Part shown: positions 1,486 through 63,953 of the stretch, piece by piece
Layout: each line of letters begins with the position of its first letter
How positions within the stretch are numbered: the stretch's first letter is position 1
Program-made: the position numbers and the translations under genes
Notes under the pieces: generated by a model
Told to the model about the DNA's origin: nothing
What the model saw: only the letters and a program-made list of their open reading frames with translations
The model's database searches: none
Assembly: GCA_947172415.1 (NCBI GenBank)
Contig: OX359191.1
Span: forward strand, 7,177,130-7,241,129
Length of the DNA stretch: 64,000 bases
Source: Chondrosia reniformis
Taxonomy: Eukaryota; Porifera; Demospongiae; Chondrillida; Chondrillidae
Reading direction: 5' to 3'

Positions 1486-4400
1486 TCATTCAAACCCTCC
1501 TTCAGAAATAAGGTACTTCACTACATCTTTGTGTCCTTTCCTCCTAGCCAGTGTCAAGCAGTCCTCTCCATATGTATTAACATTAAACTTCCTTCTTCCA
1601 AATAAGGGCAATAGGTACTTGACAACTTGGAGATGGCCCTTAAGACAGGCAAAGTGTAGAGCACTGTTTCCATACTACAAGATAATCACAATTATGAATA
1701 TAAACATGAAAACAAACATATACAGTATGTTTTGGGTCAGTTGTCCAGACAGGACTTGCAATCAATAATCGGTAAAAAGGTTTATCGCTGTATGGTTATG
1801 TTGTTCTAGTGTGAAAGTTTGTTCAAATGGTAGTCATGAGTGCTAAACAATTACCAATTTCAATGTCCGGTAGGGACAACCGACCCAAAAAGTACTGTAT
1901 AAGTATAGATATGGTGCACTTGCAGTTAATATGTAAATCAGGACCAGTATATCTACTTCAAATTGTTCACTAGACTATGGGGACGGCATATACTACTAAT
2001 CATCCAAAATGGAGTGGAATTTACACATTTATTTAATAGTGCTGATCATGTTTATCTACAGCCAATGGGATGTATCTGAGAAGGTCACATGACTGACACT
2101 TTTTCTTAGTTAATTCAGCCAAATAAGAGTTGGAACAAACAGGTGACCTTCCAATCAAGTCAATAGTGGCACTGGTGCCTTTGAATCAGCACAAATGTTT
2201 AGGTTGGTAGACATTGTGCTCTTCCACCTGTGGTCTAAATATTACATAATAATCACTACATACGAGTGCATGAGGTACTCAGTACCTATTATATATAGGA
2301 AATCATTTTAGCATATCAGTGAGGAGATCTAACTTAAAGACAGTAGTCATAGAGACAAGCTAGTATAAGAAACTAGTGTTTAGTTGTAAAATTGTGTGAC
2401 TGCAAGTTATGCAAGATTATGTACATTATTAAAAATAGTTATTTCAATTTTGCATCATCTCTCATCATGATGTATAATTTAAAGTTCAAATTTTGTTTCT
2501 CCACCAATTCTGGTCTAACTGTTACATAATAATCAATACATTGCTATCAATGCAAATGTACCACTCAAACTGTAAACCAAACAAGCAATATTCCACCCGA
2601 CAGTAACAACAGATCTACTTCAGAGAAATGACAAATATTAATATTAATTTTTATATATGTGCTTTTGAAGCATCCAGCATAAAGAATAGCATGTGATGCA
2701 TCCCATGATTATTATTGAAATTAAAGATTAAGAAAGTCCTTTGCAAAGTCCCATCAGGCTACACCCATCTGAACTAAATAAAAAAATAGAATTAACAAAA
2801 ACTAAAGATACATTTTGACTAAGTTCTACAAATGTCTGTTACCTAATCAAACTATAATAAATTGATTCTTTCTTATAAATCATATGTGACCTTCCACAGT
2901 TAACAGGGTAATAATAAGTAATAATTTATAAAATTATAAAGATACTTTTGCAGCGTCAACACAGTGTTCACAATTAATATCTACCGACACAAGTTGAATC
3001 ACTTAGCTCTTAACTTTATACTTAATGACTATGGTACGTATATGTACTATCCAACACTTGCTACAACAACACTTACTTTTTACACAGGATATCTTACCTT
3101 GTCCTTGTGGTACACATTAGCTTTACGTTCCTCTGTCAGATGTTGTACTACTTGTAACTGACCTTCCCGACAGGCTAGCAGTAGAGCGGTGAAGCCATCC
3201 TAAAGTAAGAAATATGTAAACTCATTGAAATCAGTTACAACACTTCAATCACTTCAGACAAGTGACACAGATAGATAGTTCACAATTATTATGTTGTTAA
3301 ACTACGTACATATTAACATAAACTACATACATTTACATTTAACAAAAATGTTAAACGTCTAACTACATTACATGATCAGCCATGGCATAACCATCATATC
3401 AACTTTGCATGTACTAACAGACTTATTGGTTATTATATGCAGCTTAAATTAATCAACACTTTACAACTATTACATATTAATACTCACATTGCTTTCCTCT
3501 TCTAATTTGACATGATGTGTATCAATTAAGCAACTGATGATGGCTTGTTTACCATACTTAGCTGCCTTCATTAGAGGAGTCACACCTTCCTGTGTACATA
3601 AGAAGGGAAACATTTGAGATTGGAAACTTCAGCATACAACAAGTTATAGTTAACATCGTTTAATTCCAAAGCCAAACACACATTATTGGTACTATTACAA
3701 TATACACTTTATCAATTAACATTGTTGCAGATCCTTATACACCTCATTGTACTTCAATGTAATACAATTAGTACAAACAACTAGTAGGTATGAGTTTCGT
3801 ATTGTTACTATTACGTAAAAATACTTAATATGTAATCACACGATTTTAGTTCACCATTCTTTATACAATTACCCCAGTTACCTCACTATAGCAATATAAG
3901 AGACACTAACTCATTTCTTACCTTATTCCTTTCTTCAGGAGTGAACTTCAGTTCTTCAACAATGTGGCTCACCATTGCAGGATTGTCTTGTTCATTTCTA
4001 CTGGCATCGTGAATTAGACTGTTTCCATATACATCAACATCATGGAGTTTACCAGCTTCTATGAACTTTGGTAGTAGGAACTTCAGTAAATCCACATTGC
4101 CACTAAAGGCAGACCAGTGTAAGGCATTTCCATCATACTGGATTAGGAAGCACAAGACGGGAACTTAAAGGTTTTTGACAAAGAAGTGATATAGACATTC
4201 AGAAACATACTATATATACTATACACTTGCACTATATCAACTCCTAAACAGTATTTTTTACATGTAAATTAGTGAGAATTTGTGTCCAAACACTGAACAC
4301 AAATATACTCAACATTACAGGGATATCATGAATACTTGATTAACAATGGCCCTTATGACAGGCAAAGTGTAGAGCACTGTTTCCATACTACAAGATACAC

Positions 4401-7400
4401 ATAAGTAATTATGGATTTCAACATGAAAACAAACATACAAGTGTAGCAATGGTACACTTGTAGTTAATATGTAAATCAGGATCAGTATATCTACTTCAAA
4501 TTGTTCACTAGACTATGGGGACGGCATATACTGCTAATCATCCAAAATGGAGTGGAATTTATATGTTTACATAATATTGCTGATCATGTGACCTTCCATC
4601 AAGTCAATAGTGGCACTGGTGCCTTTGAATCAGCACAAGTGTTTAGGTTGGTAGACGTTGTGCTCTACCACCTGTGGTTTAAATATTATGTAATAATCAA
4701 TACATTGCTATCAATGCAAATGTGCCACTCAAACTGTAAACGAAACAAGCAATATTCCACCCCCACACTAACAACAAATCTACTTCAGAGAAATGACAAA
4801 TATTGTGCTTTTGAAGCATCCAGTAAAGCAGAGCATTTGAAATTAAAGATTAAGAAAGTCCTTTGCAAAGTCCCATCAGACTACACCCTTCTGAACTAAA
4901 TAAATAAACTCATATATAGAATTAACAAAAACTAAAAGATGCATTAATTTTTGACTAAGTCTGTTATATAATCAAACTATAAAAAAATGATTTTCTCTTA
5001 TAAATCATCATATGTGACCTTCCACAGTAAACAGGGTTATCCTGTAAGTTATATAATACATACAAAGACACTTTTACTATAAAGTCCCGAGTGGCTAGGA
5101 AGGCTCAAGCTGAATTTGATTTACTCGTAAACGCTAGCTGACATGAAAATGGTTCTCTTAAGGATACAAGTACTACTGTATAAGTACAAAAAGCAGACAA
5201 ATAGTGATAGGTCACGTGAAATACAATAGAGCATGAACAAGGGGAAAAACGTGAAGTACAAGTCAACAATACATTGTACCTTAATCCGTAAAGTGACAAG
5301 TTGGTAAAATCAAATAATAGTAAGTTAAGTGTGATACCAGTCCAATAGGGTAGCATAGATTCCTGGCATTGAGCCCCTTCCCCTATTGAGAGGGGCCTGC
5401 TCATGTTGGATATGACAGGACTCCAACAACCAATGGGTCTGTGTGTGGGGGTGGGCATCTATCACTTTGGACAAGTCCATCTGGTGATGTGAGACGAACA
5501 CATGTTCAGCAAGTGATGAGGACAACACACCCTCATTCCTGAGTGCTCTCCGATGTTCTCCAAGGCGATGATCTAATGACCTGCCAGTCTGCCCAATGTA
5601 GGATTGTTGACACTCATTGCAATGTATGCTGTAGATCACCTCTTTCCTTTTTCCCTCTGGAACAGGGTCCTTCAGATTGACCAGCTCTTGCCTCAGAGTT
5701 TGGAAGGGACAGAAGGTGACATTGATGGCCAGGGAGTCAGTTTCTGCAAATGGACTGTGATAGCCCATGGATATAAGGGATGATCGCTGATGCCCGTGCT
5801 GTCTGTTCCTCAGCATGGCTGTTGTATTTCACGTGACCTATCACTATCTGTTTGCCTTTTGTACTTATACAGTAGATGAAGGCAGCCATAGGTTGTCGAA
5901 ATGTCGAAGAGAAACATTTTCATGTCGACTACTGTTTACAAGTAAATCAAATTCAGAAAGATACTTTTGCAGCGTCAACATAGTTCACAATTAATATCTA
6001 CTAACATAAGTTGAATAGCTAAACTCTTACCTACACTATCTCTTTATACCTTATGACTATATATGGCATATATACTATCCAACACTGACTTGTTATACAA
6101 AGAGATATCTTACCTTGTTCTTGTGGTACACATTAGCTTTACGTTCCTCTGTCAGATGTTGTACTACTTGTAATTGACCTTCCTGACAGGCTACCAGTAG
6201 AGCTGTGGTACCATACTAAAGTAAGAAATATGTAAACTCATTAAAATCAGTTATAACACTTCAATCATTGAAATTCATACAAGTGCTATACTGATATATA
6301 GTTCACAATATTATGTTGTTAAAACATAAAGTACTTATGAAGTGAGGGCTTCTCCGCTGGCGCAGTCATCAAAAAAGGGTTAGGTTCTCTAATACCAGCG
6401 TTAAAAAGACAAAAAAGAAACAAGTTTGTCTTGCCGACGTTTCGGTCAGGGTACTCTGACCTTCTTCAGGGCGAAGTCTCCGTGGTTGACCGGGCCAGGA
6501 CCGCCAAGGAGCTGCTAATAAAGGAGGCCATCCACATTGGACTGAATCACCCATCCCTCAACAGGGAAGGAGGTCTGGAGCTGCCTAGATGCTGGATGGC
6601 CGCATTGAAGAACACAAGCTGTGGATCCAACCAAAGATCTGTGGCGCCAACTGACAATCCCAGTGACAGCACTTGATGGGATGCAAGGCTATATAATGAC
6701 AAATACTCACACTAGCTTCATCTTCGCCCTGAAGAAGGTCAGAGTACCCTGACCGAAACGTCGGCAAGACAAACTTGTTTCTTTTTTGTCTTTTTAACGC
6801 TGGTATTAGAGAACCTAACCCTTTTTTGATAAAGTACTTAAATTTATATATAAAAATGTTAAAATCATAAGTAACTACATTACATGATCAGCCATGGCCC
6901 TCGCTTATTGGATGTCTTTCAAGTGCTACATACAAACTTTTATATCATCACTAGTTGCTATTTCTATGATATGTTACACCAACTAACAGAGTCAACCGTA
7001 TGGTATATCAACTTCACATGTACTAGTAAGATTCAAGGGCAGTTATTTAATGTATATAGCTTTAATAAATACAACTATTACATATTAATACTCACATTGC
7101 TTTCCTCTTCTAATTTGACATGATGTGTATCAATTAAGCAACTGATGATGGCTTGCTTACCATACATAGCTGCCATTATTAAAGGAGTCACACCTTCCTG
7201 TGTACATAAGAAGGGAAATATTTGAGATTGGAAACTTCAACATACAACAAGTTATAGTTAACATCATTAAATTCCAAAGCCAAACACACATTCGTTTATT
7301 GTTTACAATATACACTTTATTGATATAAACATTGTTACAGATCCTTACTTGTTCTTCTAAATACAATTAGTACATACAAATAGTAGTAATGAGTTTCGTT

Positions 7401-10400
7401 GCACTAAGAGATGATTGGCATGTGAAGATTTAAAGGAACATTGAAATTTAAAACTCGTAATCTTTTACAGTATGTTTTACTCCTACAATTGAAATAACCC
7501 CCCCTCCCCCCCTTTAACTCAAAATAAGTAAGTGTCTAAGAATCATTTAATAATTATAGCTTCAGAAATGTCAGGGAATGGAATAATGACCAATGAGAAA
7601 TTTGAGGGTCCCTTTGTCGACTTGGATGAAGACAAATCCACAATGGACAAGGACCAACATGCATGTAATTAACTTAGTTATCATTTGTTATGTCTCACTC
7701 CTCTTTCTTAGTTGTTTTTGTAAAAAAACAAGTATTTCGAGTTTAAAAAACTCGTGGTGCGCCAGGCGCCCCTAAGTAAACTCAAACTACTTGGCTGGTG
7801 CAAATTAGATGTCCAGTTCTAGTTAGATGTGCGGTTAACCGATTCCGATTGACTCTTGTTCTATGCCGTCAATTTTACAAGGCCATATCTCGTAGAAAAC
7901 GCTTTCACGCAAGCTTTACGTTACATACTATTCGTAAATATGGTTTCTAAATCCTTTTCGTTCGTTTAATGTTCGATGCTAAGGAAGAGAAAGCTAGTTT
8001 TAAGCTAGAAACAAAAGCCAGCCGAACGTCCGCCATTTTGGTGACAGATATATATATATATATATACGAGGTTACGAACAGGAAGCCATACGTTAACATA
8101 ATTTTTGAAAAAATATAGGGGCGCCTTTGGCGCCCCAAATATTCTATCAGTGATTATCGTCTAATACAGTAACAATGATACCCTCAAATAAACCTACAAG
8201 TTCTAACAAAGTCAATATTAATAATACCCGCACATCCTATATAAGGATATATGTTATACATACGTATGTACTGGTGGATATAGCAAATACTTAACATGTA
8301 ATCACACTATTGTAGTTCACCATTCCTTATACAATTACCTCAGTTACCTCATTATAGCAATATAAGAGACACTAACTCATTTCTTACCTTAGTACTCCTT
8401 TCTTCAGGAGAGAACTTCAGTTCTTCAACAATGTGGCTCACCATTGCAGGATTGTCTTGTTCATTTCTACTGGCAAAGTGAATTAGACTGTCTCCATATA
8501 CATCAACATCATGGAGTTTACCAGCTTCTATGAACTGTGGTAGCAGGAACTTCAGTAAATCCACATTGCCACTAAAGGCAGACCAGTGTAAGGCATTTAC
8601 ATCAGCCTGGATTAGGAAGCATAAGACAGGAGCTTAAAGGTTATTTGACAAAGAAGTGATATAGACATTCAGAAACATACTATATGCTTGCACTATATCA
8701 ACTCCTAAACAGTCCTTGTACTGTTGTAATTATGTACAACATTGAGAGCACCATACACTACGCGAATACACTCAATATTAGAAGGATATCATGGATTACT
8801 TCATGACTATATTTTACACTGAGTGACACTGCGTTAGTTACTTGAACTATAAATATATACAGTTACATGCACTAACACTCATCATGAGAAGGATTACAGA
8901 GAGAGAGAGAGTTAATTACACAACTCCAAATGCTAAGTGACCAAAGTCTTATCTTTGTCGGGAGACTGAAGTTAAATATCATTGAAAGACAACAAATGAC
9001 TATTAGACAAGTCTATTTTAATGTAGCAGTCACTTTACTGGTACTCGACTGGTAAGGAAACCTCAATTGCTTTAACTGCAATAGTAATTATTGGCAGGTT
9101 TGCTACTCAAAATACATTACATGCTTTACTAATGAGCAAAACAGAATATAGTCTGCATGCATTTGACTGAGTTGTGTGGCTCAACCTTCTCCCTAAGTGA
9201 CAAATCTGGTATCTACCAACACAAGTTGTATCCCTTAACACTTACCTACACTATACCTCTATACCCAATAAGTATATGTATATTATCCAACACTTACAGT
9301 ACAACAATACTTACTTGTTATACAGAGAAGTGTCTTACCTTGTTCTTGTGGTACACATTAGCTTTACGTTCCTCTGTCAGATGTTGTACTACTTGTAACT
9401 GACCTTCCAGACAGGCTAGCAGTAGAGCTGTGTTACCACTCTAAAGTAAGACACAATGCAAATTAAATTAATCAAATTAATTGAGTCAAACAGTCAATTG
9501 TTAAGAACTGTATATGTACATAATGTAATAGAAATCATTAATAATGATACAATAATTAGTCACTAAACACTACAAATTAATTATCATTGTTAATAGCCAT
9601 AGACAGCTGTTTCCTTATTAGGACTCATCAGTATGGCATACAATGGAAGTTTGAGTGGCTAGTCTGCTAATAAGTACTCTCAAAAGCAAAAAAAGCTTGT
9701 GGTTTCCTTATCAGCAGATAAGGTGGCTAGGGGGATACTCTGGTTCCCATCAAGCGAAATTGGCTCATTGCGCTCCTCAGGGGACATGAGTGGGCAGGGG
9801 TGATATTGATGCTTTAGGATCGACGTTAGATCTTAAAGTTCCCCTATTATTTTTCCCTAGGGTTTAATTGTTAGTGACTCCTGATCAGGTAAATGCTTTA
9901 AACTTGCAGTCTTTTCTCATTATATGCACTTTCAGTATATAATTCATTTTATAATCTATACCATGTCAGAATTTATGAAGATATTTCAATTAATAATATA
10001 TTCAAATTATCTATAATCTATAGTGTTTACAAGTTTCATATTTTTACAAAACAACCTATGAGTTGTTTATTGTACTATATTGGTTAAACTTATATACACA
10101 CAATAAATATGGCTAAAGAGTAAAAATTAATATATTTTCCATGTGTACCTTACGTAGCACAATACACTCACTACATCTTCTTTTTCCACATTATGCCCTG
10201 TATCCAACAGGAGCTTCAAGACCTCCAAATCTCCACTTCTACCAGCTTGTAGCAAAGACTATTAGTTTGGGATCAAGTATGAATGATAATCTATCTGAAT
10301 TATGAATTGAATGTAGATTATACATAATATAAGTCTTATACAATATGTACGTATGCATATGAATGTACACAAATACAGTCATGGCTGTTTAGTATGGCCT

Positions 10401-13400
10401 TTGATAATCCAGTTCCCTCGATATCAGGCTGACTTTTCAGGGAAACAGGTCTTAATAGTATAATTTTGTACATGAGAAACCAGCCCTTGATTTACCTTTT
10501 GTATATCTACCTATACGAAATTGACAAGTTAATCTAATGAATGTTAGCCGACCTACTGCCAAACAATTTTGGTCTGCAAAATACGTATGCTGATTTAGTA
10601 TGTGCACTGGAAATGTACCAGTCAGTGATAAAGTATTACTTTTAAATTAGTGCATGTTTTGTACTAGGAATGAGCACTTGTTAGTTTATTCATATAATAA
10701 TTTTACAATCATGGTAATGTCATGGTGTCAGGATGACATTTTATAGACTTTCTTAATCCAGCAATGTTTGGAGAAACCAATGCAGTTGGATTGAACAGTC
10801 ATGACTGTATACGTACAATCAATCAATCACACCCATGGTGAACTGTATACTATAACAAATGTACACTTTCAATTCCTTATATGGTCAATATTTATTGTAA
10901 TGGACGGGAATGGAATAAGAACTGTATACATCTGCAAAACCTACTCCTTTCTTCTTCTTTCTGAACAGAGATCCTTCCTTCTTCATTCTGGAGAGAGATC
11001 CTTCCTTCTTCTTTCTGGACATAGAATTTGTAGCATAGTCCCAAAGTTCCTTCGACTGTAAAAGTAGCTTTTCAAACTTGTTTGAGACAATTTCAGAGTT
11101 AACTCGAACAGCTTTAATCACAGCATCACAAGTATATGTCTCCTTCAGTTCCTAGAAGAGGTGGAAAAGAAATATTCTACTAGCAGCTACTGCTAGCAGA
11201 ACACAAAGCCTAAATGTACAGTTTTAGAAATGAATTTATCACATGTTGGTATGTATGTATGTACATGCATAAACATATTATTTCTATATAGACTACCTCA
11301 ATACTGCCTTCTTCTGACTTCAGACGTTTCTTTAGATTAACCATCATTTTCAAATCTGCCAAACCTTTTGATTCACTCAAACTCTTTATTTTCTCTTCAA
11401 CTTGAGATAAAATGGCTGCCTTAGGTTCAATTTGCAGCTGGTATTTGTAGAACTTGTCTTTTATCAAAGAAACCTTTCAAGTAAAGATATATGTATGTTA
11501 AGTAAATTCATAAATTACAAATTAGCATTCCAAATATTACTTCATTATTCACCTTACATAGGTAACAGAGGAGTGGCAGTGGTCACCATAGAAACTAGGT
11601 ATAAGCTATATATATAATGTCTACATACATATGCAACACTATACAAATAAGTATCAGGTTGTATATATACTATATCCACAGACCCAAAAAATACAATTTG
11701 TACATTGTGTAGTCACTACTTACAACATCCTGCTCTGATAAAGTTTGCTTTTCTTCCTCTTTCTCACGACTGGATTTCTCTTCAAGTTGCCTCTTCAGTG
11801 ACTCCACCTTCTCAACCAAGTCTACATCCACCAGCTGCAAACAGACACAGACAGGTTAATACTTACATTGGTGAAGAATACAATCATTTAGAGTGAGTGT
11901 GCTACTGTCAATCTCACTTCTTCCAACTGCTTCACTTCTCCTCTACATTTCAACAACTCTTCCCTTGTTCTCTTCAACTCATTCTGTGACTGACTCAGTT
12001 CTTCTTCTTTGGCTCTCAGTTTAGTCTTTAGAGCATGAAGCTCCACCATTGTCATGTGGTGCATTCCCTCCATACTCTTCATCTCTGCCTTATGTTTCTC
12101 TCTGGACTGAGTTGGAGTTTTCTGAGAATAGGAAATCACATACAACCTAACCATACGACCAACAGCTACACAACTGAACCACAGCTACTATGATAAGACC
12201 TTAATTAGAATAGTCAGTATTATACAATATCAGGTTTATAATGCATGCAGTTGACAAGTATAAAAATAATATTAAATAAGCCAGGAATATATAATACATA
12301 TATACACATATAATTATGACATACACATGGATTGAATACATTAATACAAAATGTACTGGCAAAAGCAACAGACACAATTGCTATAACTAATAATTCCTTG
12401 TATACCATATACAGTGGACATCACTGCTAAGACTATCACTGGGACAGAATCAAAGTGGTCCATACACTGATTTGGTGGGATAAATTACCCAATATAATAT
12501 GCAAGTGGGAGGTAAGAGATACAAATATGGCACAGTCATTAATTGGCACAAATTTAATATGATGTTAATTGTCTTACAGACATGTAATGATGTACTCACT
12601 GAAGGAACATGCAGAGTTTCAAGTTGAACATCAATGGCAAAGTAGCCAAACACGATGACCTTCTCAACTCCAAACTCTCTCAGCTGACACACATGTGACA
12701 GGAGGATTGGAGCAATCATCACTGCGGCCTCCTTCATCAGTCGGAACATTACCATGGTGCAGCCTTCAGCAAATCCCTCAAAGAGAACTCGATCGATACC
12801 CAGGGTTTCTATCAAGTAGAACTGCAAGCGAAACAGCTCAGCCAACATATACTGACCTGGTTCCTGGTTGACTTTCAATCCCAAGTGGGCGTGGTTGTCA
12901 TCAGCAGGAAGCTCTGCTCTTTCACTTTGAAACTTTCCAAGTGCTTCTGTGGCAAAGTTGATAACATCAAAGTTGTGGTCAGAAATGGATTCCTTGAGAG
13001 CTTCTGTTTCTCCTATAGCCTTTGCAGCATCAGCAATAAGTCGCACATCCAAGGGACTGCTCCACAAGTAGATGTAGTCAAGGATATCATCTTCTGATAA
13101 TGGAATGTCTACTGGAATCTGGCTGCTGAAATGACCTTTAATTCCAATGCGGACTGCACGATGAAGTTTTTTCAACTGCTTGTCAGATAGGTCTGAGAGA
13201 TAGTTTCCCAATTTCTCATTTATTGAAGTGTACTTTTCTTTAAGCGTAAATGCTCCTGGATATTTTAAGAGTTCCCTTCGATCCTCAAAAGCTTTAATGA
13301 CAGGTTTCCAGGTGTCAATCTCTGAGATGTCGGAAAGTGGAGGTGTTGATTGAGCTACTGTAGCTGATGGAGGCGGGACTGGCTTGGGAGGTGTGGCATC

Positions 13401-18550: not shown

Positions 18551-18598
18551 CGTCTCGCTGGTACGTGAGGCCAGTGGAATGAAGCATGATCGTCTTTT

Positions 18599-19113: not shown

Positions 19114-19343
19114 CTTTTTGATGATATCTTTAGAGATAAGAAAGCATATAGGCTTCTGAACTAAAAGCTGAAAAAACGTTAGTTACCTTAAATATAGATT
19201 ATGCCAATTCTCTATACGTGTATATAAATGCATGTTTTGTGTAAACAGAAAAAATAGCCTAGACTTAAATGTATGTAGTTTCAACTTGTGGAGCTGGATT
19301 TTACAATGAGCAGTTCCTGTTCCCTTTTCCCTACTCTGATCAG

Positions 19344-36120: not shown

Positions 36121-36312
36121 CTACATATGTACAAAAAGTGTAAGTTTCAAAGGTTGAGCGAATGCACCCATACAACTGCTGTAGGGGTACGTACGTATAC
36201 GTAATTAGGATATATAGACTATGGTTAAATTACTTGTTCGTACTAGCACATCTGGAAAAGGTACTACACTAGACAGATGATTATCATCGTGGGGGCGAGC
36301 ATACCTTTCCGA

Positions 36313-36770
36313 GCATAGCACCTGAACACAGTAGTCGATTAGCCGTATTTTAGACTGCAGGAGGGCGAATGCGAAGTAGCCTTCCCTGCATTGCCTTCCT
36401 CTGAGCGTAGCACCTGAACACAGTAGTCGATTAGCCGTATTTTAGACTGCAGGAGGGCGAATGCGAAGTAGCCTTCCCTGCATTGCCTTCCTCGGAGCGT
36501 AGCACCTGAACACAGTAGTCGATTAGCCGTGCTTTAGACTGCAGGAGGGCGAATGCGAAGTAGCCTTCCCCGCATTGCCTTCCTATGAGTGTAGCACCCG
36601 AACACAGTAGTCGGTTAGCCGTGTTTGGTGCGATTAGCCGTGTTTTAGACTGTAGGAGGGCGAATGCGAAGTAGCCTTCCCCGCATTGCCTTCCTCTGAG
36701 TGTAGCACCTGAACACAGTAGTCGATTAGCCGTGTTTGGTGCGCATCCTCTTTCCTCAGAAGCCTTCCGC
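36313..36770. repeat. 92-bp satellite, five copies
   Basis: The phrase CCTGAACACAGTAGTC recurs at 36,321, 36,413, 36,505, 36,597 (CCCGAACACAG variant) and 36,708, giving a 92-bp period and one 111-bp spacing from a short internal duplication. Each unit also holds GGAGGGCGAATGCGAAGTAG. GC-rich relative to its surroundings. An open frame across it on the minus strand reflects the period rather than a gene. Confidence 0.85.
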
Positions 36771-38360: not shown

Positions 38361-38365
38361 TAATA

Positions 38366-42700: not shown

Positions 42701-42879
42701 GTTTAACATCTACTGCATTTATACATAATAAATTATACGTATGTAGTTACCATTACATTAGATATGTAGTAGATATATATAATATGTTACTGTTATATGC
42801 ATATGTATAAATAATCTAATACACCACTTTCTTACATGTTATGCCTATTCTTAAAAATACATTAATAAGCCTATAAGGA

Positions 42880-50400: not shown

Positions 50401-53400
50401 AAGACAGAAGCTTAAAGGTATTTGATAAAGAAGTGATATAGACATTCAGAAACATACTATATACTATACATTTGCATTATATCAACTCCTAAACAGTATT
50501 TTTTACTTGTAAATTAGTGAGAATTTGTGTCCTAACACTGGACACTAATATACTCAACATTACAGGGATATCATGGATTACTTGATTAATAATGTAAAGA
50601 CTTAGTGAAATAGGATAAGCTATATAAAAAGGTTAGTGAGTCATGTCTATACGAAGTTTTAACAAACACAGTGGATCCTTGTTTATCTATAGTTTCAAGG
50701 GGATTAGAGGTATATACCAGATATACGTATGGAATATTTGACTATAATTACAGTGGAACGTCGATTATCCGAACTAATTGGGGATTGGCCTGTTCGTAAA
50801 ATCAAAAAGTACGTATAATCAAACAGCAAGCAGTTTCTCAACAAAAGTGACCAATATTTCTTCATTTCGCTTAAAAAATGGTTTTATATCACAAATCGTT
50901 GACTTCCCAATACATTATGTATTCAATTCCTTCGATAATGAAGTATTAGCAGCCCCTTTCTTCAATTGTTTACAAATCTCAAGCTTTCTGGTCTACACTT
51001 AGTTCTCTTCCGGCCATTTTTTGCTGAGTCAGCATCTTGTGACGACGTCCGGATAATCAACGAATCGTATAATTGACGTTCGGATAATCGACGTTCCACT
51101 GTATGTCAATTACACAATATCTGTTCAAAGGCTAAGTGACCAAAGTCTTATCTTGTTTAGGAGATTATAGGCTTATTAAGTAAATACTTAAAGAAGATAA
51201 CACAGTCCTCTGTGGAACTGGATGATTTGTCATCTTGGGTGATATACTGTTTGCCATTTGCTGAGACATTGATCTCACAAGTACTACGATAAGACTTCTT
51301 TGCTAAACAATTCCTCATCTACTTATCAGAGAGTATTGTAATACCAATATTAACTAATACATACTTTAAAGAACTGGACTTAATGCAATAATGATATGTA
51401 CATAAATTAACAAGCTTCCTGTCACTAGTAAAGCTAGGTTGCCTGTAGTGATGACAGATCAGCTCACTCTCCCCAAGCTGTGTTCTAAGAGGTGAGTAGA
51501 CTAGCACCTCTGACTACAGAGCAGTTAAGGTTTTGTTTACTAGCTTATTAGGTAATTAAAGGAACTTGTAGTCACTCTCTACAGTTGCTGTTAATGTACA
51601 CATTAGAGGCTACTTTAACTTACACTTGTAGAATAAATAATTATATAAAACTAATGTCATGTTCAGGACACATATACAGTAATATATACTATATACACTT
51701 ATATGTATTTTTCACTTCAAATCATTATATAGTCTATATTTTAACCATTTCTACTGTAACTGTTATTTTGATCGTCTTCATGTTATAAATCCCTAAGACT
51801 ACTGTAAACATGCCATGTTGTTCAATATACAGAACCATAAATTATTACTGTATTGCAATTGCGTAGACTATAAAGACGTCATTTATATACAGAGCTAACA
51901 CAAATACAAACTGATCACATGAATTAACTGTATAGACAGTGTTTAGAAGGACATTAACATGTGTTTAGGTTGTGAAAATAAGAGAATTAATTGTTTATTT
52001 ACTAGTTCTCTATATCTAATAAGTAAACATACACTTCCTATAATACCACACTTAACTGACTAGAACTAGAATGATAACTGGTACTGTAGAATTGAAATGA
52101 ATGTCCAACTAATGATATTTAAATGTACATTTTAAACACACTTGTTACACAACTAATTGCAACCAATGCCAATTATAATTGTAATCAATATAACTCACAA
52201 TATCCACCAACACAAGTTGTATCCCATAACACTTACCTACACTATATCTCTATACCCGATAAGTATATGTACTATCCAACACTGACTTGTCATACAGAGA
52301 GATATCTTACCTTGTTCGTGTGGTACACATTAGCTTTATGTTCCTCTGTCAGATGTTGTACTACTTGTAAGTGACCTTCCTGACAGGCTACCAGTAGAGC
52401 TGTATTACCATACTAAAGTAAGAAATACGTATGTAAACTCATTAAAATCAGTTATAACACTTCAATCATTGAAATTCATACAAGTGCTATTACTGATATA
52501 TAATTCACAATATTATGCTGTTAAAACATAAAGTACTTAAATTTATATATAAAAATGTTAAAAGTTACATTACATGATCAACCATGGCCCTCATTTGTTG
52601 GATATCTTTCAAGTGTTACATACATACAAACATTTATATCATCACTAGTTGATATTTCTATGATATATTAGACCAACTAACAGTGTCAACCATATGATAT
52701 ATCAACTTCACATGTACTAGTAAGATTCAAAGGCAGTTATTTAATGTATATAGCTTTAATAAATACAACTATTACATATTAATACTCACATTGCTTTCCT
52801 CTTCTAATTTGACATGATGTGTATCAATTAAGCAACTGATGATGGCTTGCTTACCATATATAGCTGCCTTCATTAGAGGAGTCACACCTTCCTGTGTACA
52901 TAAGAAGGGAAATATTCGAGATTGGAAACTTCAGCATACAACAAGTTATAGCTAACATTATTTAATTCCAAAGCCAAACACACATTCATTTATTGTTTAC
53001 AATATACACTTTATTGATATAAACATTGTTACAGATCCTTACTTGTACTTCTAAATACAATTAGTACATACAAATAGTAGTTATGAGTTTCGTTGCATAA
53101 AGAGATAATTGGCATGTGAAGAATTAAAGGAACATTGAAATTTAAAAGTCATAATTATTTACAGTACGTATGTTTAACTCCTACACTTGAAATAACCCCC
53201 ACCTTTAACTCAAAATAATGAAGTGTCTAAGAATGATTTAACTATTATAACTTCAGAAATGTCAGGGACTGGAATAATGACCAATGAGGAATTAGAGGAT
53301 CCCTTTGTCGACTTGGATGAAGACAAATCCACAATGGACAAGGACCAACATGCATGTAATTAACTTAGCTATCATTTGTTATGTCTCACTCTTCTTTCTT

Positions 53401-56400
53401 AGTTGTTTTTATAATAAAATATTCTATCAGTGATTATCATCTAATACAGTAGCAATGATAACCTCAAATAAACCTACAAGTTCTAACAAAGTCAATATTA
53501 ATAATACCCACACATCCTATATAAGGATATATGTTATACATATGTACTGGTGGATATAGCAAATACTTAATATGTAATCACACTATTTTAGTTCACCATT
53601 CCTTATACAATTACCCCAGTTACCTCACTATAGCAATATAAGAGACACTAACTTATTTCTTACCTTACTCCTTTCTTCAGGAGAGAACTTCAGTTCTTCA
53701 ACAATGTGGCTCACCATTGCAGGATTGTCTTGTTTATTTCTACTGGTATAGTGAATTATATTGTCTCCATATATATCAACATCATGGAGTTTACCAGCTT
53801 TTATGAACTTTGGTAGTAGGAACTTCAGTAAATCCACATTGCCACTACAGGCAGACCAGTGTAAGGCATTTCCATCGTCCTGGATTAGGAAGCATAAGAC
53901 AGGAGCTTAAAGGTTTTTGATAAAGAAGTGATACAGACATTTAGAAACATACCATACACTTGCACTATATCAACTCCTAAACAGTTATGTCCACACTTGT
54001 ATTGTATGTTGTATTTATGTATAACAGTGAGAACACCATACACTGGATACAAATATACTCAATATTAGAAGGATTACTTCATGACACTTCATGACACTGC
54101 GTTAGTTACCCAAAAATTACTTGAACAATACGTACAGTTACATGCACTAACACTCTTCATGAGAAGGATTACAGAGAGAGAGTTAATGACACAACTCCAA
54201 ATGCTAAGTGACCAAAGTCTTATCTTTGTCGGGAGACTGAAGTTAAATATCACTGAAAGACAACAAATGACTATTAGAAGTCAATTTTAACACAGTCACT
54301 TTAGCTGTACTCTACTGGTAAGGAAACCTCAATTGTTTAACTGCAATAGTAATTATTGGCAGGTTTGCTACTCAAAATCCATTACATGCTGTACTGATGA
54401 GCAAAAACAGAATATAGTCTGCATGCATTCCACTGAGTTGTGTGGCTTCTCTCTAAGTAACAAATCTGGTATCTACCAACATAAGTTGTATCCCATAACA
54501 CTTACCTACACTATATCTCTATACCCAATAATTATACCCCGATGCCATGGCAACGGGCTGGTTAATGGTGGGGTATATTTGTGATATGTTGATTGGTTCA
54601 CGGATATACGCGTGAAATTCAGAATGCTACTGATATGCATGAAAGGTTAATTGGATGGTTTGAACCATTTTGGTTTGGTTTGGTTTGAAGCCATTTGTTA
54701 AGAGTAGCAGCTTTACAATTCTTGAAAATGTCGAGTGGACACTGGTCGGCAGAAAACTTCTTGTTGTGCGCGTCCCTCCAAGCTGAGAAGGTGTTAAAGG
54801 CCCACTTTGTCATTTTCTCAGTGTTTCCTGGGACATACTTGGTCGACAACTTCTCCACTTCTTCACTAGACAGAGAAGGAAACCGCTCGTTCTCTTTGTT
54901 CGCCATCGCTTCTCCCGCCCGATCGCCATGGACAACTGGGTATAAAGCAGTTATAGCCCATGGTCTCGGACTTCCGCCAGAATATAATTACTCGGCCTCG
55001 GCTTCGCCTCGGCCTCGTATTATATTCTGGCGAAAGTCCTCGCCCTTGGGCTATAACTATTACGTATATATATGTATATTATCTAAACACTTACAGTACA
55101 ACAATACTTAATTGTTATACAGAGAAGTGTCTTACCTTGTTCTTGTGGTACACATTAGCTTTACGTTCCTCTGTCAGATGTTGTACTACTTGTAACTGAC
55201 CTTCCTGACAGGCTAGCAGTAGAGCTGTGATACCATACTAAAGTAAGACACAATGCAAATTAAATTAATCAAATTAATACAGTCAAACAGTCAATTGTTA
55301 AGAACTGTTTTATACATATGTACATAAATAGTCTAAGAAATCTATCATTCACTTGAGACATATAAATGTAATAGAAATTATTAATAATGATACAATAATT
55401 AGTCACTAAACACTACAAATTAATTAATTGTTGTTTCACTATTATGGTATAACTATCATCATCATTGAACTCTGGATATTACCCCTGCCCACTCATGTCC
55501 CCTAAGGAGCACAATGAGCAAATGGGCGGAACCGAAGTTAACTTGATGAGAACCACAGTTTATGGTACATACATATATAGTACAATTAATATAGCTAAAG
55601 AGGAGAAATTAATATATTTTTCATGTGTACTTTACGTAGCACAATACACTCACTGCATTTTCTTCTTCCACATTATGCCCTGCATCCAATAGGAGCTTCA
55701 AGATCTCCAAATCTCCACTTCTACCAGCTTGTAGCAAAGACTATTAGTTTGGGATCAATTAAGGAATGATATTCTATCTGAATCATGAATTGAATGTAGA
55801 TTATACATAATATAAGTCTTATATACAATATGTATGTATGCATATGAATGTATACAAATACAGTCATGGCTGTTTAGTATGGCCTTTGATAATCCAGTTC
55901 CCTCAATATCAGGCTGACGTTTCAGGGAAATGGGTCTTAATAGTATAATTTTGTACGTGAGAAACCAGCCCTTGATTTATCTAATCCAGCAATGTTTGGA
56001 GAAACCAATGCAGTCGGATTGAACAGTCATGACTGAACAAATGTACACTTTCAATTCCTCACATGGTCAATATTTATTGTAATGGATGGGAATGGAATAA
56101 GAACTGTACATCTGCAAAACTTACTCCTTTCTTCTTCTTTCTGGACATAGATCCTTCCTTCTTTGTAGCATAGTCCCAAAGTTCCTTCAACTGTAAAAGT
56201 AGCTTTTCAAACTTGCTTAAGACAATTTCAGAGTTAACTGTCACAGCTTTAATCACAGAATCACAAGTATATGTCTCCTTCAGTTCCTAGAAGAGGTAGA
56301 AAAGAAATTAAATATTCTACTAGCAGGACATAAAGCCTAAATGTACAGTTTTAGAAATGCACTTGTCACATGTTGGTATGTATGTATGTATGTATGTACA

Positions 56401-59400
56401 TGCATAAACACATTATTTCTATATAGACTACCTCAATACTGTCTTCTTCTGACTTCAGACTTTTCTTCAGATTAAACATCATTTTCAAATCTATCAAATC
56501 TTCTGATTCACTCAAACTTTTCATTTTCTCTTCAACTTGAGTTAAAATGGTTGCCTTGGGTTCAATTTGCAGCTGGTATTTGTAGAACTTGTCTTTTATC
56601 AAAGAAACCTTTCAAGTAAAGATATGTGCATTAAGTAAATTCATAACTTACAAATTAGCATTCCAAATATTACATAAATCATTATTCACCTTATATAGGT
56701 AACATAGGAGTGACAGTGGTCACCATAGCAACTAGGTATAAGTTATATAATGTCTACAAGCACATGCAACACTATTTAAAAAAATATCAGGTTGTATATA
56801 TACTATATCCACAGACCCAAAGAATACAATTTGTATGTTGTGTAGTCACTACTTACAACATCCTGCTCTGATAAAGTTTGCTTTTCTTCCTCTTTCTCAC
56901 GACTGGATTTCTCTTCAAGTTGCCTCTTCAGTGACTCCACCTTCTCAACCAAGTCTACATCCACCAGCTGCAACAGACACAGACAGGTTAATACTTACAT
57001 TGGTGAAGAATACAATCATTTAGAGTGAGTGTGCTACTGTCAATCTCACTTCTTCCAACTGCTTCACTTCTCCTCTACATTTCAACAACTCTTCCCTTGT
57101 TCTCTTCAACTCGTTCTGTGACTGACTCAGTTCTTCTTCTTTGGCTCTCAGTTTAGTCTTTAGAGCATGAAGCTCCACCATTGTCATGTGGTGCATTTCC
57201 TCCATTCTCTTCATCTCTGCCTTATGTTTCTCTCTGGACTGAGTTGGAGTTTTCTGAGTAAAGGAAATCACATACAACCTAACCATACGACCAACAGCTA
57301 TGCAACTGAACCACGACTACTATGATAAGACCTTAATTAGAATAGTCAGTATTATAACAATATCAGGTTTATAATGCATGCAACAATATGATAAGCGAGA
57401 GGACTTTAACTTTGATATAGTAAATAATAATATTCCTAATACCCCAGCCTATGGTGTCTTTATTTCACAACTAATTAGGTATTCCAGAATATGTAGTGAC
57501 TTCTCCAGTTTTCAGGCTAAAAGTTTGCAGTTATGCAGTAGGCTTATTAAGCAGGGTTACAAATACTATAAGCTAAAATCAACCTTTAAAACCTTCCTAT
57601 CCCGGCAGCCTCTAGTTAGAATCAAGTATAAGCAAAAAGTAGCTAGTATGCTTAAGGACTGTCTTGTGTTACCCCATATTGTGTTACCCCACCTCCAAAG
57701 AAATGTTACTACTAGAAGACCTAAGGGTAGACTTACGTAATATGTCCTACTTTTGTCTATAGTTATGCTGAGTCTGTTTTACCTGTACAAGCAAGTTTAC
57801 TAATAGATTTATAATTAATTCATAAAAGTTAATTGGACCTACATTCCTTTCATAAAATTAAATTTCATCATGTGTCTTAGTTAACACCTTATTTAACTTT
57901 TGGCACCAAAATAGTGTATATAAGGCCCCTAGATTTAGCATAGTGAGCCAAGGAGTCACAGAAGATCAAGATAAAGAAAAAGACAAAGACTCCCAGGATC
58001 ACTGATGAAGGGTGGAATTCCCAGAAACGGGAAGAAGGAAGAAAAGACTCCTGTATCTTCATCTAAAGCTCTCTTTAGGTTTTGTCCCCCTATAGGCTCT
58101 TTTTACAGAATAGGCATATAGCATGCAGGAAAATGGTATCTTAGATTTTTCATGCAGTTGACAAGTATAAAAATAATATGAAATAAGCCAGATATAGATA
58201 ATCAATATGATATACTAATGGATTGAATACAATAATACAAAATGTACTGGCAAAAGCAACAGACTAAATTGCTATAACTAATAATTCCTTGTATACCATA
58301 TACAGTGGACATCACTGCTAAGGCTATAACTGGGACAGAATTAAAGTGGTCCATATACTAATTTGGTGTGGTAAACTACCCAATATAATATGCAAGTGGG
58401 AGGCAAGAGATACAAATATGGCACAGTCATTAATTGGAACAAATTAAATATGATGTTAATTGTCTTACACACATGTAATGATGTACTCACTGAAGGAACA
58501 TGTAGAGTTCCAAGTTGAACATCAATGGCAAAGTAGCCAAACACGATTGCCTTCTCAACTCCAAACTCTCTCAGCTGACACACATGTGACAGGAGGATTG
58601 GAGCAATCATCACCGCAGCCTCCTTCATCAGTCGGAACATCACCATGGTGCAGCCTTCAGTAAATCCCTCAAAGAGAACTCGATCGATACCAAGGATTTC
58701 TATCAAGTAGAACTGCAAGCGGAACAGCTCAGCCAACATATACTGACCTGGTTCCTGGTTGACTTTCAATCCCAAGTGGGCGTGGTTGTCATCGGCAGGA
58801 AGCTCTGCTCTCTCACTCTGAAACTTTCTAAGTGCTTCTGTGGCAAACTTGATAACATCAAAGTTGTGATCAGAAATGGATTCTTTGAGAGCTTCTGTTT
58901 CTCCTATAGCCTTTGCAGCATCAGCAATAAGTCGCACATCCAAGGGACTGCTCCACAAGTAGATGTAGTCTAGGATATCATCTTCTGATAATGGAATGTC
59001 TACTGGAATCTGGCTGCTGAAATGACCTCTAATTCCATTGCGGACTTCACGACGAAGGCTTTTCAACTGCTTGTCAGATAAGTCCGACAGACACCTTCCC
59101 AATTTCCCATTTATTGAAGTGTACTTTTCTTTAAGCTCAAATGCTCCTGGATATTTTAAGAGTTCCCTCCGATCCTCAAAGGCTTTAATGACAGGTTTCC
59201 AGGTGTCAATCTCTGAGATGTTGGAAAGTGAAGGTGTTGACTGAGCTACTGTAGCTGATGGAGGCAGGATTGGCTTGGGAGGTGTGGCATCTAAGGGAGA
59301 AAGGCACTAATACAACACATACAATGCATACAAAGATATATTTATATATATTTGCAAGAATGTTGAGTAGTGGCATTAGAATAGTTAGGTACTGAAAGAA

Positions 59401-60115
59401 GCTCCAAATGATTGACCAGTTTCATGTCAACGTAAATGAACCTATTCCAATATAATACCATGCAATGGTCCATATCATAACAATTACAGAGATTATTTCA
59501 TGTATATATCCTCCTGGTAAATAACTTACTTGCTAAATATTTATCAATTAGTTCCGCTAGTTCTTTATGGTTACCACGAGAAGTGTCCTCCTTAAGTGCA
59601 GTAGACAGATGTTTTAACTTCTTCTCATTCGGATCAAGAACTAAAATCTCATAGAGAGCTCTGTTAGCTGTTCCTAATTCTGGTACCAGCGAACCAACTC
59701 GCTCCAGTTCGCTAGTAGTGATAGCACCGAGTTGATGAAGACTAGTTGATACTCTACGAACATCACAGTTGTTTACCAACTGATCGTGTATTTGCTGGAT
59801 GAAAGAGCGAATTTGGTCTTTAAGTGGCTGCGACGATTGCTCTACATATGTACAAAAAGTGTAAGTTTCAAAAGTTGAGCGAATGCACTCATACAACTGC
59901 TGTAAAACTAAAATTACGTACGTATACGTAATTAGGATATATAGACTATGGTTGAATTACTTGTACGTACTAGCACATCTGAAAAAGGTACAATAACATT
60001 ATTCAGGGATATCATAATCAGTTGTACGGTCTCTAAAATTCAATGATACAGAAGAATCTAAGAGACATGATGACTTCTAAACTCGCTACCTACCTGCAGA
60101 CATTTTGTCAGCCAT
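44455..60115 (-). CDS. CARD-like / unknown domain / coiled-coil / ankyrin protein, gene C (complete)
   Basis: Sixteen exons, high to low: 60094-60115, 59530-59841, 58491-59290, 57050-57253, 56857-56967, 56432-56608, 56110-56286, 55654-55740, 55136-55237, 53664-53879, 52790-52891, 52311-52412, 50169-50384, 48739-48840, 47189-47290, 44455-44643. They join to about 1,006 residues with no stop. The start exon reads MADKMSA. CARD-like, proline-rich, unknown, coiled-coil and ankyrin parts follow as in gene A. The basic exon is 59 codons, 15 shorter than in A. Repeat exons are ordered 34-72-34-34-72-34-34-terminal, as in A. Introns carry several private insertions (piggyBac-, pogo- and hAT-like, retroelement pieces) without touching exons. 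The last exon has diverged (HGYSALHFAC). Probably functional; the ligand and pathway cannot be read from sequence. Confidence 0.8.
44699..44858. mobile_element. short inverted-repeat element (MITE-like), copy C
   Basis: Same element as 1,730-1,890, in the last intron of gene C. Confidence 0.6.
45640..46066. mobile_element. hAT-like non-autonomous DNA element
   Basis: Exact 12-bp inverted ends, CATAGTTGCCAA and TTGGCAACTATG, flanked by AATTTT on both sides. Related introns (for example 29,890-29,930) read through TTTTCAATTTTGTATCAT without it. The inside holds CCGGGAC repeats and no frame. An hAT-like assignment rests on the end sequence; the expected 8-bp duplication is only clear for 6 bp. 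Confidence 0.55.
46181..47031 (-). mobile_element. Penelope-like element fragment with inverted repeats, copy 2
   Basis: Counterpart of 5,110-5,956 with the same inverted arms. The GIY-YIG frame is broken: the stretch corresponding to CNECQQSYIGQTG has stops in place of the glutamate after the asparagine and of the glutamine after YIG. The downstream part SSLAEQVFVSHHQMDLSKVI remains. Presence beside the equivalent 34-residue ankyrin exon in both genes shows insertion before A and C separated. Confidence 0.7.
47591..48672 (-). mobile_element. retroelement 5' ORF fragment with two Myb/SANT-like segments
   Basis: GC-richer insert in a gene C intron. Two frames, 48,140-48,355 and 47,564-48,130, each contain a pattern of Trp/Leu, CY or LY, ERSEPKRRGYQKRL or ESKPMEKGYAEQL and a Trp. 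That pattern resembles N-terminal DNA-binding regions of invertebrate retroelements. A stop and frame change separate them near 48,135. Bases 48,360-48,670 hold further GC-rich element sequence with no open frame. No reverse transcriptase is included. Compared with 6,990-7,035 it replaced about a dozen bases between ATATCAAC and GTAAGATTC. Confidence 0.5.
49208..49703. mobile_element. piggyBac-type miniature element
   Basis: A 496-bp insert with CCCTTTTCCGCCCG and GGGTGGTAAAGGG ends, flanked exactly by TTAA at 49,204-49,207 and 49,704-49,707. The sister intron at 53,165-53,185 has a single TTAA at this point (GTTTAACTCCTACAC). No transposase frame. Confidence 0.85.
50751..51101. mobile_element. 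pogo/Tigger-type miniature element
   Basis: A 351-bp insert with inverted ends CAGTGGAACGTCGATTATCC and GGATAATCGACGTTCCACTG, flanked by TA on both sides. The ends match the style of pogo/Tigger elements. No transposase frame. Found only in gene C. Confidence 0.85.
51102..52310. other. intron DNA of gene C without recognised features
   Basis: About 1.2 kb between the pogo-type element and the exon 52,311-52,412. AT-rich; no exon, repeat unit or element ends were found, and much of it has no clear counterpart in genes A and B. Confidence 0.4.
54619..54906 (-). pseudogene. Crypton-type / ZMYM-QRICH1-like N-terminal fragment
   Basis: A 95-codon frame starting MANKENERFPSLSS, with NTEKMTKWAFNTFSAWRDAH and then LNKWL. 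This resembles the segment in front of the Crypton-derived tyrosine-recombinase-like domain in ZMYM/QRICH1-type proteins and in invertebrate Crypton elements. The catalytic part is absent. It sits in an insert of about 54,531-55,064 that is missing from genes A and B at this place. Confidence 0.45.
54952..55055. repeat. 104-bp palindrome with GC-rich loop
   Basis: Left arm starts TATAGCCCATGG and contains CGCCAGAATATAATTAC; the right arm GTATTATATTCTGGCG ends CCTTGGGCTATA. The central 25 bp is a CGGCCTCGG repeat. It lies at the right edge of the Crypton-like insert and may be an element terminus. Confidence 0.65.
55474..55560. repeat. interspersed repeat, gene C, opposite orientation
   Basis: The reverse complement contains GGGGACATGAGTGGGCAGGG, the core of the repeat at 9,652-9,868, in the equivalent intron but flipped. 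Confidence 0.5.
55861..56035. mobile_element. mariner-type miniature element, copy C (internally deleted)
   Basis: Keeps the CAGTCATGGCTGTT left end and GTCATGACTG right end of 10,376-10,807 but has lost about 250 bp of the middle. Confidence 0.6.
57383..58150 (+). mobile_element. 5'-truncated retroelement with reverse-transcriptase C-terminal frame
   Basis: A 768-bp insert flanked by CATGCA (57,377-57,382 and 58,151-58,156). Genes A and B have one CATGCA here followed directly by GTTGA. The frame to 57,740 reads YDKREDFNFDIVNNNIPNTP and AYGVFISQLIRYSRICSDF, typical of the tail of invertebrate reverse transcriptases, and ends in a stop. The 3' part (GATGAAGGGTGGAATTCCCA) has related pieces, inverted, in the kinesin introns at about 22.6 and 42.9 kb. 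No poly(A) tail. Confidence 0.7.
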
Positions 60116-62232: not shown

Positions 62233-63953
62233 TTAAATGTTCCCTCTTCGTTTAAACCCTCCTTTAGAGATAAGGTACTTCACTACATCTTTGTGTCCTT
62301 TCCTCCTAGCCAGTGTCAAGCAGTCTTCTCCACTTGGATTAACATCAAACTTCCTTATTCCAAATAAGGGCAATAAGTACTTGACAACATGGAGATGGCC
62401 CTTATAACAGGCAAAGTGTAGAGCACTGTTTCCAAACTACAAGATACAAATAACTATGAATAAATTATAAACATGAAAACAAACATATACAGTATGCTTG
62501 GGTCGGTTGGCCATGCAGACAGGACATTGCAATCGATAATCGGTAAAAAGGTTTATCACTGCATGGTTATGTCATTCTAGTGGGGAAGTTTGTTCAAATG
62601 GTAGTCATGAGTGCTAAACAATTACCAATTTCAATGTCCGGTAGGGACAACCGACCCAAAAAGTACTGTATAAGTATAGATATGGTACACTTGTAGTTAA
62701 TATGTAAATCAGGACCAGTATATCTACTTCAAATTGTTCACTAGACTATGGGGATGGCATATACTACTAATCATCCAAAATGGAGTGGAATTTATATGTT
62801 TACATAATATTGCTGATCATGTTTATCTATACAGCCAATGGGATGTATCTGAGAAGGTCACATGACTGACACTTTTTTCTTAGTTAATTCAGCCAAATAA
62901 GAGTTGGAACAAACAAGTGACCTTCCAATCAAGTCAGTAGTGGCACTGGGGCCTTTGAATAAGCACAAATGTTTAGGTTGGTAGACATTATGCTCTACCA
63001 CCTGTGGTCTAAATATTACATAATAATCACTACATACGGGTACATTAGGTAGTCAGTACATATGGGAAATCATTTTAGCATATCAGTGAGGAGATCTAGC
63101 TTAAAGACAGTAGTCATAGAGACAAGCTAGTATTAGAAACTAGTGCTTAGTTGTAAAATTGTGTGACTGCAAGTTATGCAAGATTATGTACAGTATTAAA
63201 AATAGTTATTTCAATTTTGCATTATCTCTCATCATGATGTATAAAGTTCAAATTTTGTTTCTCCACCAATTCTGGCCTAAATATTACATAATAATCAATA
63301 CATTGCTATCAATGCAAATGTGCCTCACAAACTGTAAACCAAACAAGCAATATTCCACCCCACACTAACAACAGTTCTACTTTAGAGAAATGACAAATAT
63401 TAATATGTGCTTTTGAAGCATCCAGCATAAAGAATAGCATGTGATGTATCCCATGATTATTATTGAAATTAAAGATTAAGAAAGTTCTTTGCAAAGTCCC
63501 ATCAGGCTACACCCTTCTGAACTAAATAAATAAACTCATATATAGAATTAACAAAAACTAAAGATACATTTTGACTAAGTTCTACAAATGTCTGTTACCT
63601 AATCAAACTATAATAAATTGATTCTCTCTTATAAATCATATGTGACCTTCCACAGTAAACAGGGTAATAATAAGTAATAATTTAAAAATTATAAAGATAC
63701 TTTTGCAGCGTCAACACAGTGTTCACAATTAATATCTACCGACACAAGTTGAATCACTTAGCTCTTAACTTTATACTTAATGACTATGGTACGTATATGT
63801 ACTATCCAACACTTGCTACAACAACACTTACTTTTACACAGGATATCTTACCTTGTCCTTGTGGTACACATTAGCTTTACGTTCATCTGTCAGATGTTGT
63901 ACTACTTGTAACTGACCTTCCCGACAGGCTACCAGTAGAGCTGTGGTACCATC
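62233..63953 (-). CDS. ankyrin gene D, last two exons (runs off the window)
   Basis: The terminal exon 62,233-62,436 and a 34-residue exon 63,852-63,953 (DGTTALLVACREGQ) match genes A-C. The terminal exon starts FGNSALHFACYKGH and uses the long C-terminus of gene B (GGFKRRGNI then TAA). Both splice sites are kept. The rest of the gene, including the CARD-like part, would lie to the right. Confidence 0.75.
62496..62661. mobile_element. short inverted-repeat element (MITE-like), copy D
   Basis: Fourth copy of the element at 1,730-1,890, in the last intron of gene D; its left end is slightly altered (CTTGGGTCGGTTGG). Confidence 0.55.

Follow-up and report, generated by a model that had tools for sequence, protein, structure and literature searches.

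We analyze a 64,000-nucleotide stretch of the sponge Chondrosia reniformis (assembly GCA_947172415.1, contig OX359191.1, here C3; C3:7177130-7241129, hereafter the window) that holds part of a tandem array of genes joining a CARD, a domain family that we call UNK, a probable coiled coil and a run of ankyrin repeats. In the commonest class of ankyrin exon (“A2”), nonsynonymous changes are concentrated at a few repeat positions, and such site-specific diversification in CARD-ankyrin genes without a NACHT domain appears to be new for an animal. Among the titles and abstract openings listed from the open-licence PubMed Central (PMC) literature, we saw none that describes this array or any diversified sponge CARD-ankyrin genes. 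We consider it probable that the array encodes NACHT-less cytoplasmic recognition receptors that present a diversified ankyrin surface and would signal through the CARD. Repeat-based intracellular receptors under diversifying selection are known already from fungi and brown algae. An initial annotation of the window had suggested a local set of intracellular sensors or adaptors, and this idea is supported in the form of an array of receptor-like CARD-ankyrin genes. Our genome-wide searches cover the 117,379,552-base assembly (15 contigs), and the parts of the gene family are given in window positions.

The A2 set comprises 59 exons, 10 from the window and 49 from other genome-search matches, and every one is open and bounded by AG/GT. 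For the group tests, we used the copies on C3 (n = 44, encoding 43 distinct proteins), the C3 copies outside the window (n = 34, held out), and the copies on contig C11 (n = 12); three copies on C12 enter the splice count and no group test. Among the window copies, variation lies at repeat positions 3, 5, 13 and 14 (3 of 46376 four-site subsets are as extreme), and the choice of these four rests on the window copies, having been made ahead of reading any others. Positions 10 and 2', which complete a six-site set, were chosen after seeing the data. The four positions carry 58-60% of the heterozygosity in the C3, held-out and C11 sets alike, and the six carry about 80% of the amino-acid heterozygosity of the exon; five of the six are contact positions of designed ankyrin repeat proteins (DARPins). 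The ratio of nonsynonymous to synonymous diversity (piN/piS) at the four positions is 2.56 in the C3 set, 2.55 in the held-out set and 3.87 on C11, versus 0.54, 0.51 and 0.66 elsewhere in the exon.

Counts of nonsynonymous and synonymous changes (N:S), pooled over exon trees of which two were used, give the same picture. In the 34 held-out copies, N:S is 49.5:1.5 at the four positions versus 27:19 elsewhere (Fisher 4.6e-6; binomial test for N excess, 0.0125). For all C3 copies, the counts are 60:2 versus 41:21 (omega 5.1), and with the six positions they become 82:2 versus 19:21 (Fisher 7.6e-11, omega 9.25); a tree built without those six codons yields 132.8:7.2 versus 14:20. The C11 copies agree more weakly than C3, with 18:0 versus 12.5:5.5. 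The N rate at the contact codons is more than five times the exon-wide S rate, and a mutational hot spot does not explain the pattern because the same codons rarely change synonymously.

A competing account is that the ankyrin exons drift under relaxed constraint, by birth-and-death and gene conversion, at contact positions that the fold does not need. Several results weigh against our reading, and some of them fit such drift. The test on the four pre-fixed positions is weaker than that on six; for C11, the N excess at the four positions is not significant on the second tree (0.124); and the N:S test on another ankyrin exon class, Am (n = 30, C3), shows no N excess. Site-by-site tests are significant for a single position in each of A2, Am and UNK, so that nearly all sites taken singly are not. 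Position 33 is invariant in the C3 A2 copies and positions 10 and 27 vary, the reverse of the DARPin libraries, which randomise position 33 and leave 10 and 27 alone. Variation at the positions in question is seen in generic ankyrin families, too. On the other side, relaxed constraint predicts an N:S near the neutral site ratio, which the C3 counts at four and at six positions exceed by far, and all 59 A2 exons are open while an adjoining second kinesin copy is broken. We regard drift of this kind as improbable.

For the other ankyrin exons, the pattern is uneven. Variation in Am falls at places similar to those in A2 (27 of 46376 four-site subsets are as extreme); here we used 23 of 25 matches outside the window and set aside those on C11 and C12. 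The last ankyrin exon shows an N excess in the 16 C3 copies tested (32:1 versus 38:16), at positions chosen partly afterwards; we read the 21 strong matches to this exon and left out 27 that were weaker. The first exon of class A3 has a dN/dS of 1.4-2.0 on few changes. Positive selection at concave-face positions, with the location on the fold taken from the repeat position, is found for the A2 exons and not for the Am exons. The dN/dS comparison that had been proposed as a check on the window copies labelled A, B and C gives pairwise values of 0.53-0.57 across ten exon sets. CARD exons of the array and its close relatives have a median omega of 0.28 (190 pairs, 2 above 1), and UNK exons a median of 0.42 (153 pairs, 5 above 1).

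We modelled copy A exon by exon from the minus strand and then located homologous exons across the window (Table 1). Copy A has 16 exons with AG/GT at every internal boundary and a single frame of 1016 amino acids from an outer ATG, and copy C has the same 16 exons. As first annotated, there are four copies in the window with A and C complete; D is a 3' end, two exons at the right edge, past which the nearest CARD exon is at C3:7247937 and the nearest UNK exon at C3:7245749. In copy B, 17 exons can be recognised (6 N-terminal and 11 ankyrin). Its exon 1 was not found: homology to copy A ends at 36271, and a tandem repeat with a unit of about 92 bases occupies 36308-36743, where that exon would be expected. 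The paralogues of this one assembly carry 9 ankyrin exons in A and C and 11 in B, the two additional ones lying beside an internal tandem duplication of about 2.1 kb. All ankyrin exons are in phase 0 at both ends, so the loss, gain or skipping of one would leave the frame intact. In the introns of A and B, we also see 14-codon scraps of the last ankyrin exon (4346-4387, 27223-27264 and 29354-29395), which are relics of repeat duplication.

Translation probably begins at the inner ATG of exon 1 (14205), which is present at all 13 loci with a recognised exon 1, versus 6 of 13 for the outer ATG; exon 1 was recognised at 13 of 20 array and related loci, and not for copy B or six loci with a second CARD type. 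Internal stops are absent from all fully mapped window exons, and length differences are multiples of three. The fourth coiled-coil exon (CC4) of B and C is partly mapped, with an open frame and GT donors. The stop codon itself varies in place: A and C end in GGFE, and B and D continue for several more codons.

Table 1. Exons of the CARD-ankyrin gene copies and neighbouring genes, in window positions.
Feature	Position	Strand	Remark
Copy A exon 1, start	14196..14217	-	inner ATG 14205
Copy A exon 2, CARD	13644..13952	-	
Copy A exon 3, UNK, 266 aa	12600..13399	-	no convincing Pfam/PDB relative
Copy A exons 4-7, probable coiled coil	10945..12121 (12121-11918, 11834-11724, 11473-11297, 11151-10945)	-	heptad contrast
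Copy A exons 8-16, ankyrin	1486..10258	-	Pfam Ank_2 2.2e-59
Copy A ankyrin exons 8-11	A1 10258-10172, A2 9440-9339, A3 8606-8388, Am 7197-7096	-	
Copy A ankyrin exons 12-16	A2 6215-6114, A3 4137-3922, Am 3589-3488, A2 3199-3098, last 1674-1486	-	
Copy B CARD exon	35809..36120	-	homology
Copy B UNK exon	34776..35569	-	homology
Copy B coiled-coil exons (probable)	33191..34302 (34302-34099, 34015-33905, 33660-33484, 33352-33191)	-	
Copy B ankyrin exons, first six	24347..32482 (whole span); 32482-32396, 31651-31550, 30818-30600, 30281-30180, 29145-28930, 28602-28501	-	
Copy B ankyrin exons, last five	28208-28107, 27014-26799, 26470-26369, 26073-25972, 24550-24347	-	
Copy C exon 1	60094..60115	-	
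Copy C CARD exon	59530..59841	-	
Copy C UNK exon	58491..59290	-	
Copy C coiled-coil exons (probable)	56125..57253 (57253-57050, 56967-56857, 56608-56432, 56286-56125)	-	
Copy C ankyrin exons, first five	44455..55740 (whole span); 55740-55654, 55237-55136, 53879-53664, 52891-52790, 52412-52311	-	
Copy C ankyrin exons, last four	50384-50169, 48840-48739, 47290-47189, 44643-44455	-	
Copy D ankyrin exons, 3' end only	62233..63953 (63953-63852, 62436-62233)	-	
Gene pieces upstream of copy A, outside the family	14592..18499	-	
Kinesin copy	19338..22260	+	one exon Pfam Kinesin 3.1e-34
Second kinesin copy	39044..42810	+	two frame breaks

Whereas the first annotation placed the family at 1486 to 63953, the array, which is real, runs well beyond these bounds: it spans about C3:6942479 to 7248245 (~0.3 Mb), and the window is one part of it. 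On C3 it holds 15 full and 2 partial UNK exons, 16 CARD, 44 A2, 30 Am and 16 last exons. Self-alignment blocks within the window reach 5.9 kb, mostly at 88-95% identity, far above chance. Two CARD types pair with different UNK types (19 genes compared), and pairings are mixed: the gene at 7108440 is 60% identical to copy A in its CARD and 95% in its UNK, and the gene at 7008431 is 89% and 86% identical, which points to exchange between copies. We rejected a pseudogene array for most copies, as every A2, Am and last exon read is open; the exceptions to intactness are a UNK relative on C9 with stops, the two partial C3 UNK copies, and copy B, which lacks exon 1. The contrast drawn earlier between kept frames and decaying kinesin neighbours also stands, with no stops in the mapped ankyrin-gene exons and two breaks in the second kinesin copy.

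Structure prediction for the CARD exon returns a six-helix death-fold bundle closest to known CARDs, in line with the death fold anticipated at the N-terminus. Copy A's CARD exon falls short of the Pfam CARD gathering score, with no match at E <= 1; 4 of 19 relatives do match at that level (best 2.3e-4). In a genome search in which 150 of 330 candidates were scored, the CARD-like matches listed comprise 16 in the C3 array, 4 close relatives elsewhere and 130 others. Among those 130, 39 lie at most 6 kb upstream of a same-strand NACHT match, and no CARD-like match lies as close on the downstream side; for C7, 38 of the 55 matches listed are upstream in this way. The CARD type of the array is thus also an NLR effector domain in this genome. 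The array genes themselves were judged not to be standard NLRs, as had been proposed: the 101 NACHT matches listed all fall outside C3:6.94-7.25 Mb, and the Pfam scan of copy A found neither NACHT nor NB-ARC, the latter having had no genome-wide search. Measured against the NLR layout, they have the N-terminal death-fold effector and lack the central NACHT/NB-ARC; the C-terminal ankyrin repeats, recognised by Pfam in copy A, are a putative sensor. At C6:1558563 and C2:9488308, CARD-like stretches occur in long open frames (2043 and 1679 amino acids) with ankyrin matches before the CARD, that is, in reverse order.

Pfam CARD and caspase matches stand side by side at C3:7302395-7303732, about 54 kb beyond the array end, and a CARD match directly precedes a caspase match also at C2:1728999-1730204. 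The C3 pair is a possible partner of the array, judged from its position, and the linkage may be chance. Such pairs also fit an adaptor or regulator, in which the CARD would self-assemble and the ankyrin repeats would have a single host partner or very few (e.g., activated caspase), the array providing dosage or partner variety and not ligand sensing. The precedent is vertebrate Caiap, the nearest CARD-ankyrin animal protein, likened here by its description: its N-terminal CARD self-oligomerises, and its 16 ankyrin repeats bind active Caspa (available text of PMC5662874). That description, as far as available, has no UNK, coiled coil or tandem diversified array, and a conserved host partner predicts conserved contacts, whereas the A2 contact residues are the most varied. 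An adaptor role seems unlikely to us.

The UNK exon (266 amino acids) has no convincing relative in Pfam or the PDB: its profile against the PDB and its members against Pfam gave no more than weak matches (best 0.0022 and 0.0076), chiefly to helical-repeat designs and unrelated families, and AlphaFold on the three window copies reached a pLDDT (predicted local distance difference test) of 36.9. From its genome matches, UNK is a real family. There are 48 of them: besides those in the C3 array, one is on C12, two are on C11, one broken C9 copy is in two pieces, and 26 are distant, at 20-36% identity. Two of the loci carry other neighbours. At C2:619500-627500, a UNK exon is preceded by a CARD-like open reading frame (ORF; by eye) and followed by a 736-amino-acid Roc-COR-like ORF (Roc 6.6e-5, COR-A 0.0029, both below the Pfam gathering score). 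At C1:9747500-9754500, two death-fold-like exons (by eye), one of them CARD-like, precede UNK and a coiled-coil-like exon; the final ORF has a glycine-zipper stretch (Gly-zipper_Omp 0.0043, below cut-off), and the CARD-like ORFs of this locus show no CARD in Pfam. Exons 4-7 are a probable coiled-coil region by a home-made score, the heptad a/d hydrophobic contrast, which shuffles matched in 4 of 300 cases for a 93-amino-acid core, 14 of 300 for exons 4-6, and 223 of 300 for UNK as a contrast.

The C11 cluster (C11:5449194-5494716, 5.45-5.49 Mb) contains 12 A2 and 4 last exons. Within it, a 7.9-kb locus (C11:5470000-5477900) has two Death-like ORFs (Pfam Death 0.037 and 0.0049, below the gathering score) followed by a coiled-coil exon that by eye is a close relative of copy A's. 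A UNK-like ORF between these parts was not confirmed against the UNK profile (probability 0.5%, E 0.12), and comparison of a Death ORF with the CARD profile found no relation. If these parts form one gene, the same sensor would be joined to a different death-fold output.

Our preferred reading, that of NACHT-less recognition receptors, supposes that the exons form one protein. Its C-terminal ankyrin stack would be the sensor, built from separate in-phase exons that duplicate and diversify mainly at concave, ligand-facing residues. The coiled coil and UNK would link this stack to the N-terminal CARD and hold or pair chains. Binding of a ligand, presumably microbial, to the varied face would let the CARD nucleate CARD-CARD assembly as the output, feeding a death or inflammatory signalling route that may be common to the sponge NACHT receptors with the same CARD type and probably ends in CARD-bearing caspases. 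Genes with ankyrin, CARD and Death domains, which need not belong to the array family, rise in expression in response to microbial signals in two other sponges, according to the available text of PMC6208332.

Several known systems share parts of this design. Fungal NLR ankyrins are described, in the sections available, as near-identical repeats that change in number and are under positive selection at positions lying for the most part on the concave face (Dyrka 2014; PMC4986451), features that the array shares; fungal ANK/TPR/WD NLRs carry NACHT/NB-ARC and other effector domains, whereas the array genes have no NACHT. The same text gives highly conserved repeats of the fungal type as 0.8% in metazoa (PMC4986451). 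Brown-algal LRR-ROCO genes, in the available text, resemble the array in their one-repeat in-phase exons, exon shuffling and concave-face diversifying selection (Teng 2024; PMC11378527); they differ in having leucine-rich repeats (LRR) and ROC-COR in place of ankyrin and CARD, and positive sites shown with PAML. Animal and sponge NLRs (death-fold / NACHT / repeat) have in this genome the same CARD type just upstream of NACHT matches; the array genes differ in the missing NACHT and in their ankyrin C-terminal part. DARPins are like A2 exons in varying concave-surface positions on a fixed framework; they are artificial, and the array varies position 10 and not 33. DARPin binders use randomised concave-surface positions, as the available text of two reports describes (PMC8229355, PMC8683736). 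The fungal parallel also suggests allorecognition, the array telling self from non-self tissue like repeat-bearing NLR-like proteins in fungal incompatibility. Tandem arrays with repeat-number change fit that role, which nevertheless looks very improbable: intracellular ankyrins would need cell fusion or a transferred ligand, and nothing in our analysis points to self ligands.

The gene pieces upstream of copy A, which we take to be GUF1/LepA-like, are co-duplicated with kinesin pieces in the window. The second kinesin copy has its frame broken at ~40561/40566 and ~40868/40870, and the plus strand of the window showed no P-loop motif of a kinesin to our inspection. A perfect 109-bp inverted repeat (6368-6476 / 6722-6830) lies in a copy A intron; its segment, 6338-6831, looks like a mobile insertion and has no counterpart at the aligned position of copy C. 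Another copy A intron holds a minus-strand open frame (5325-5828), a stretch of which resembles the GIY-YIG nuclease of a retroelement. The assembly has a 200-base run of N at 60667-60866, upstream of copy C and within a GUF1 piece; an Rfam scan of the window gave 0 matches. A small contig (17,451 bases) encodes COX1, CYTB and other mitochondrial proteins in its first 10 kb (read with code 4).

More tentatively, and with somewhat less confidence than in the receptor role itself, we propose that an animal may be using ankyrin stacks as a germline-diversified repertoire for innate recognition. This would amount to a DARPin library occurring in nature, with a fixed framework, hypervariable contacts, shufflable one-repeat exons and death-fold outputs that can be exchanged (CARD on C3 and, apparently, two Death-like domains on C11). 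It would be a class of receptors alongside the NLRs and would have a new linker of its own, UNK, found elsewhere in the genome before a Roc-COR-like ORF. Sponges branch early among animals and house dense microbial communities, and it is an open question how, lacking antibodies, an animal can distinguish many different microbes within its cells. The array offers a specific candidate repertoire, with named genes, a signalling domain and the residues expected to decide binding. If the proposal is true, animals would join fungi and brown algae in using this strategy, and sponges would provide natural ankyrin binders whose ligands could be fished for directly.
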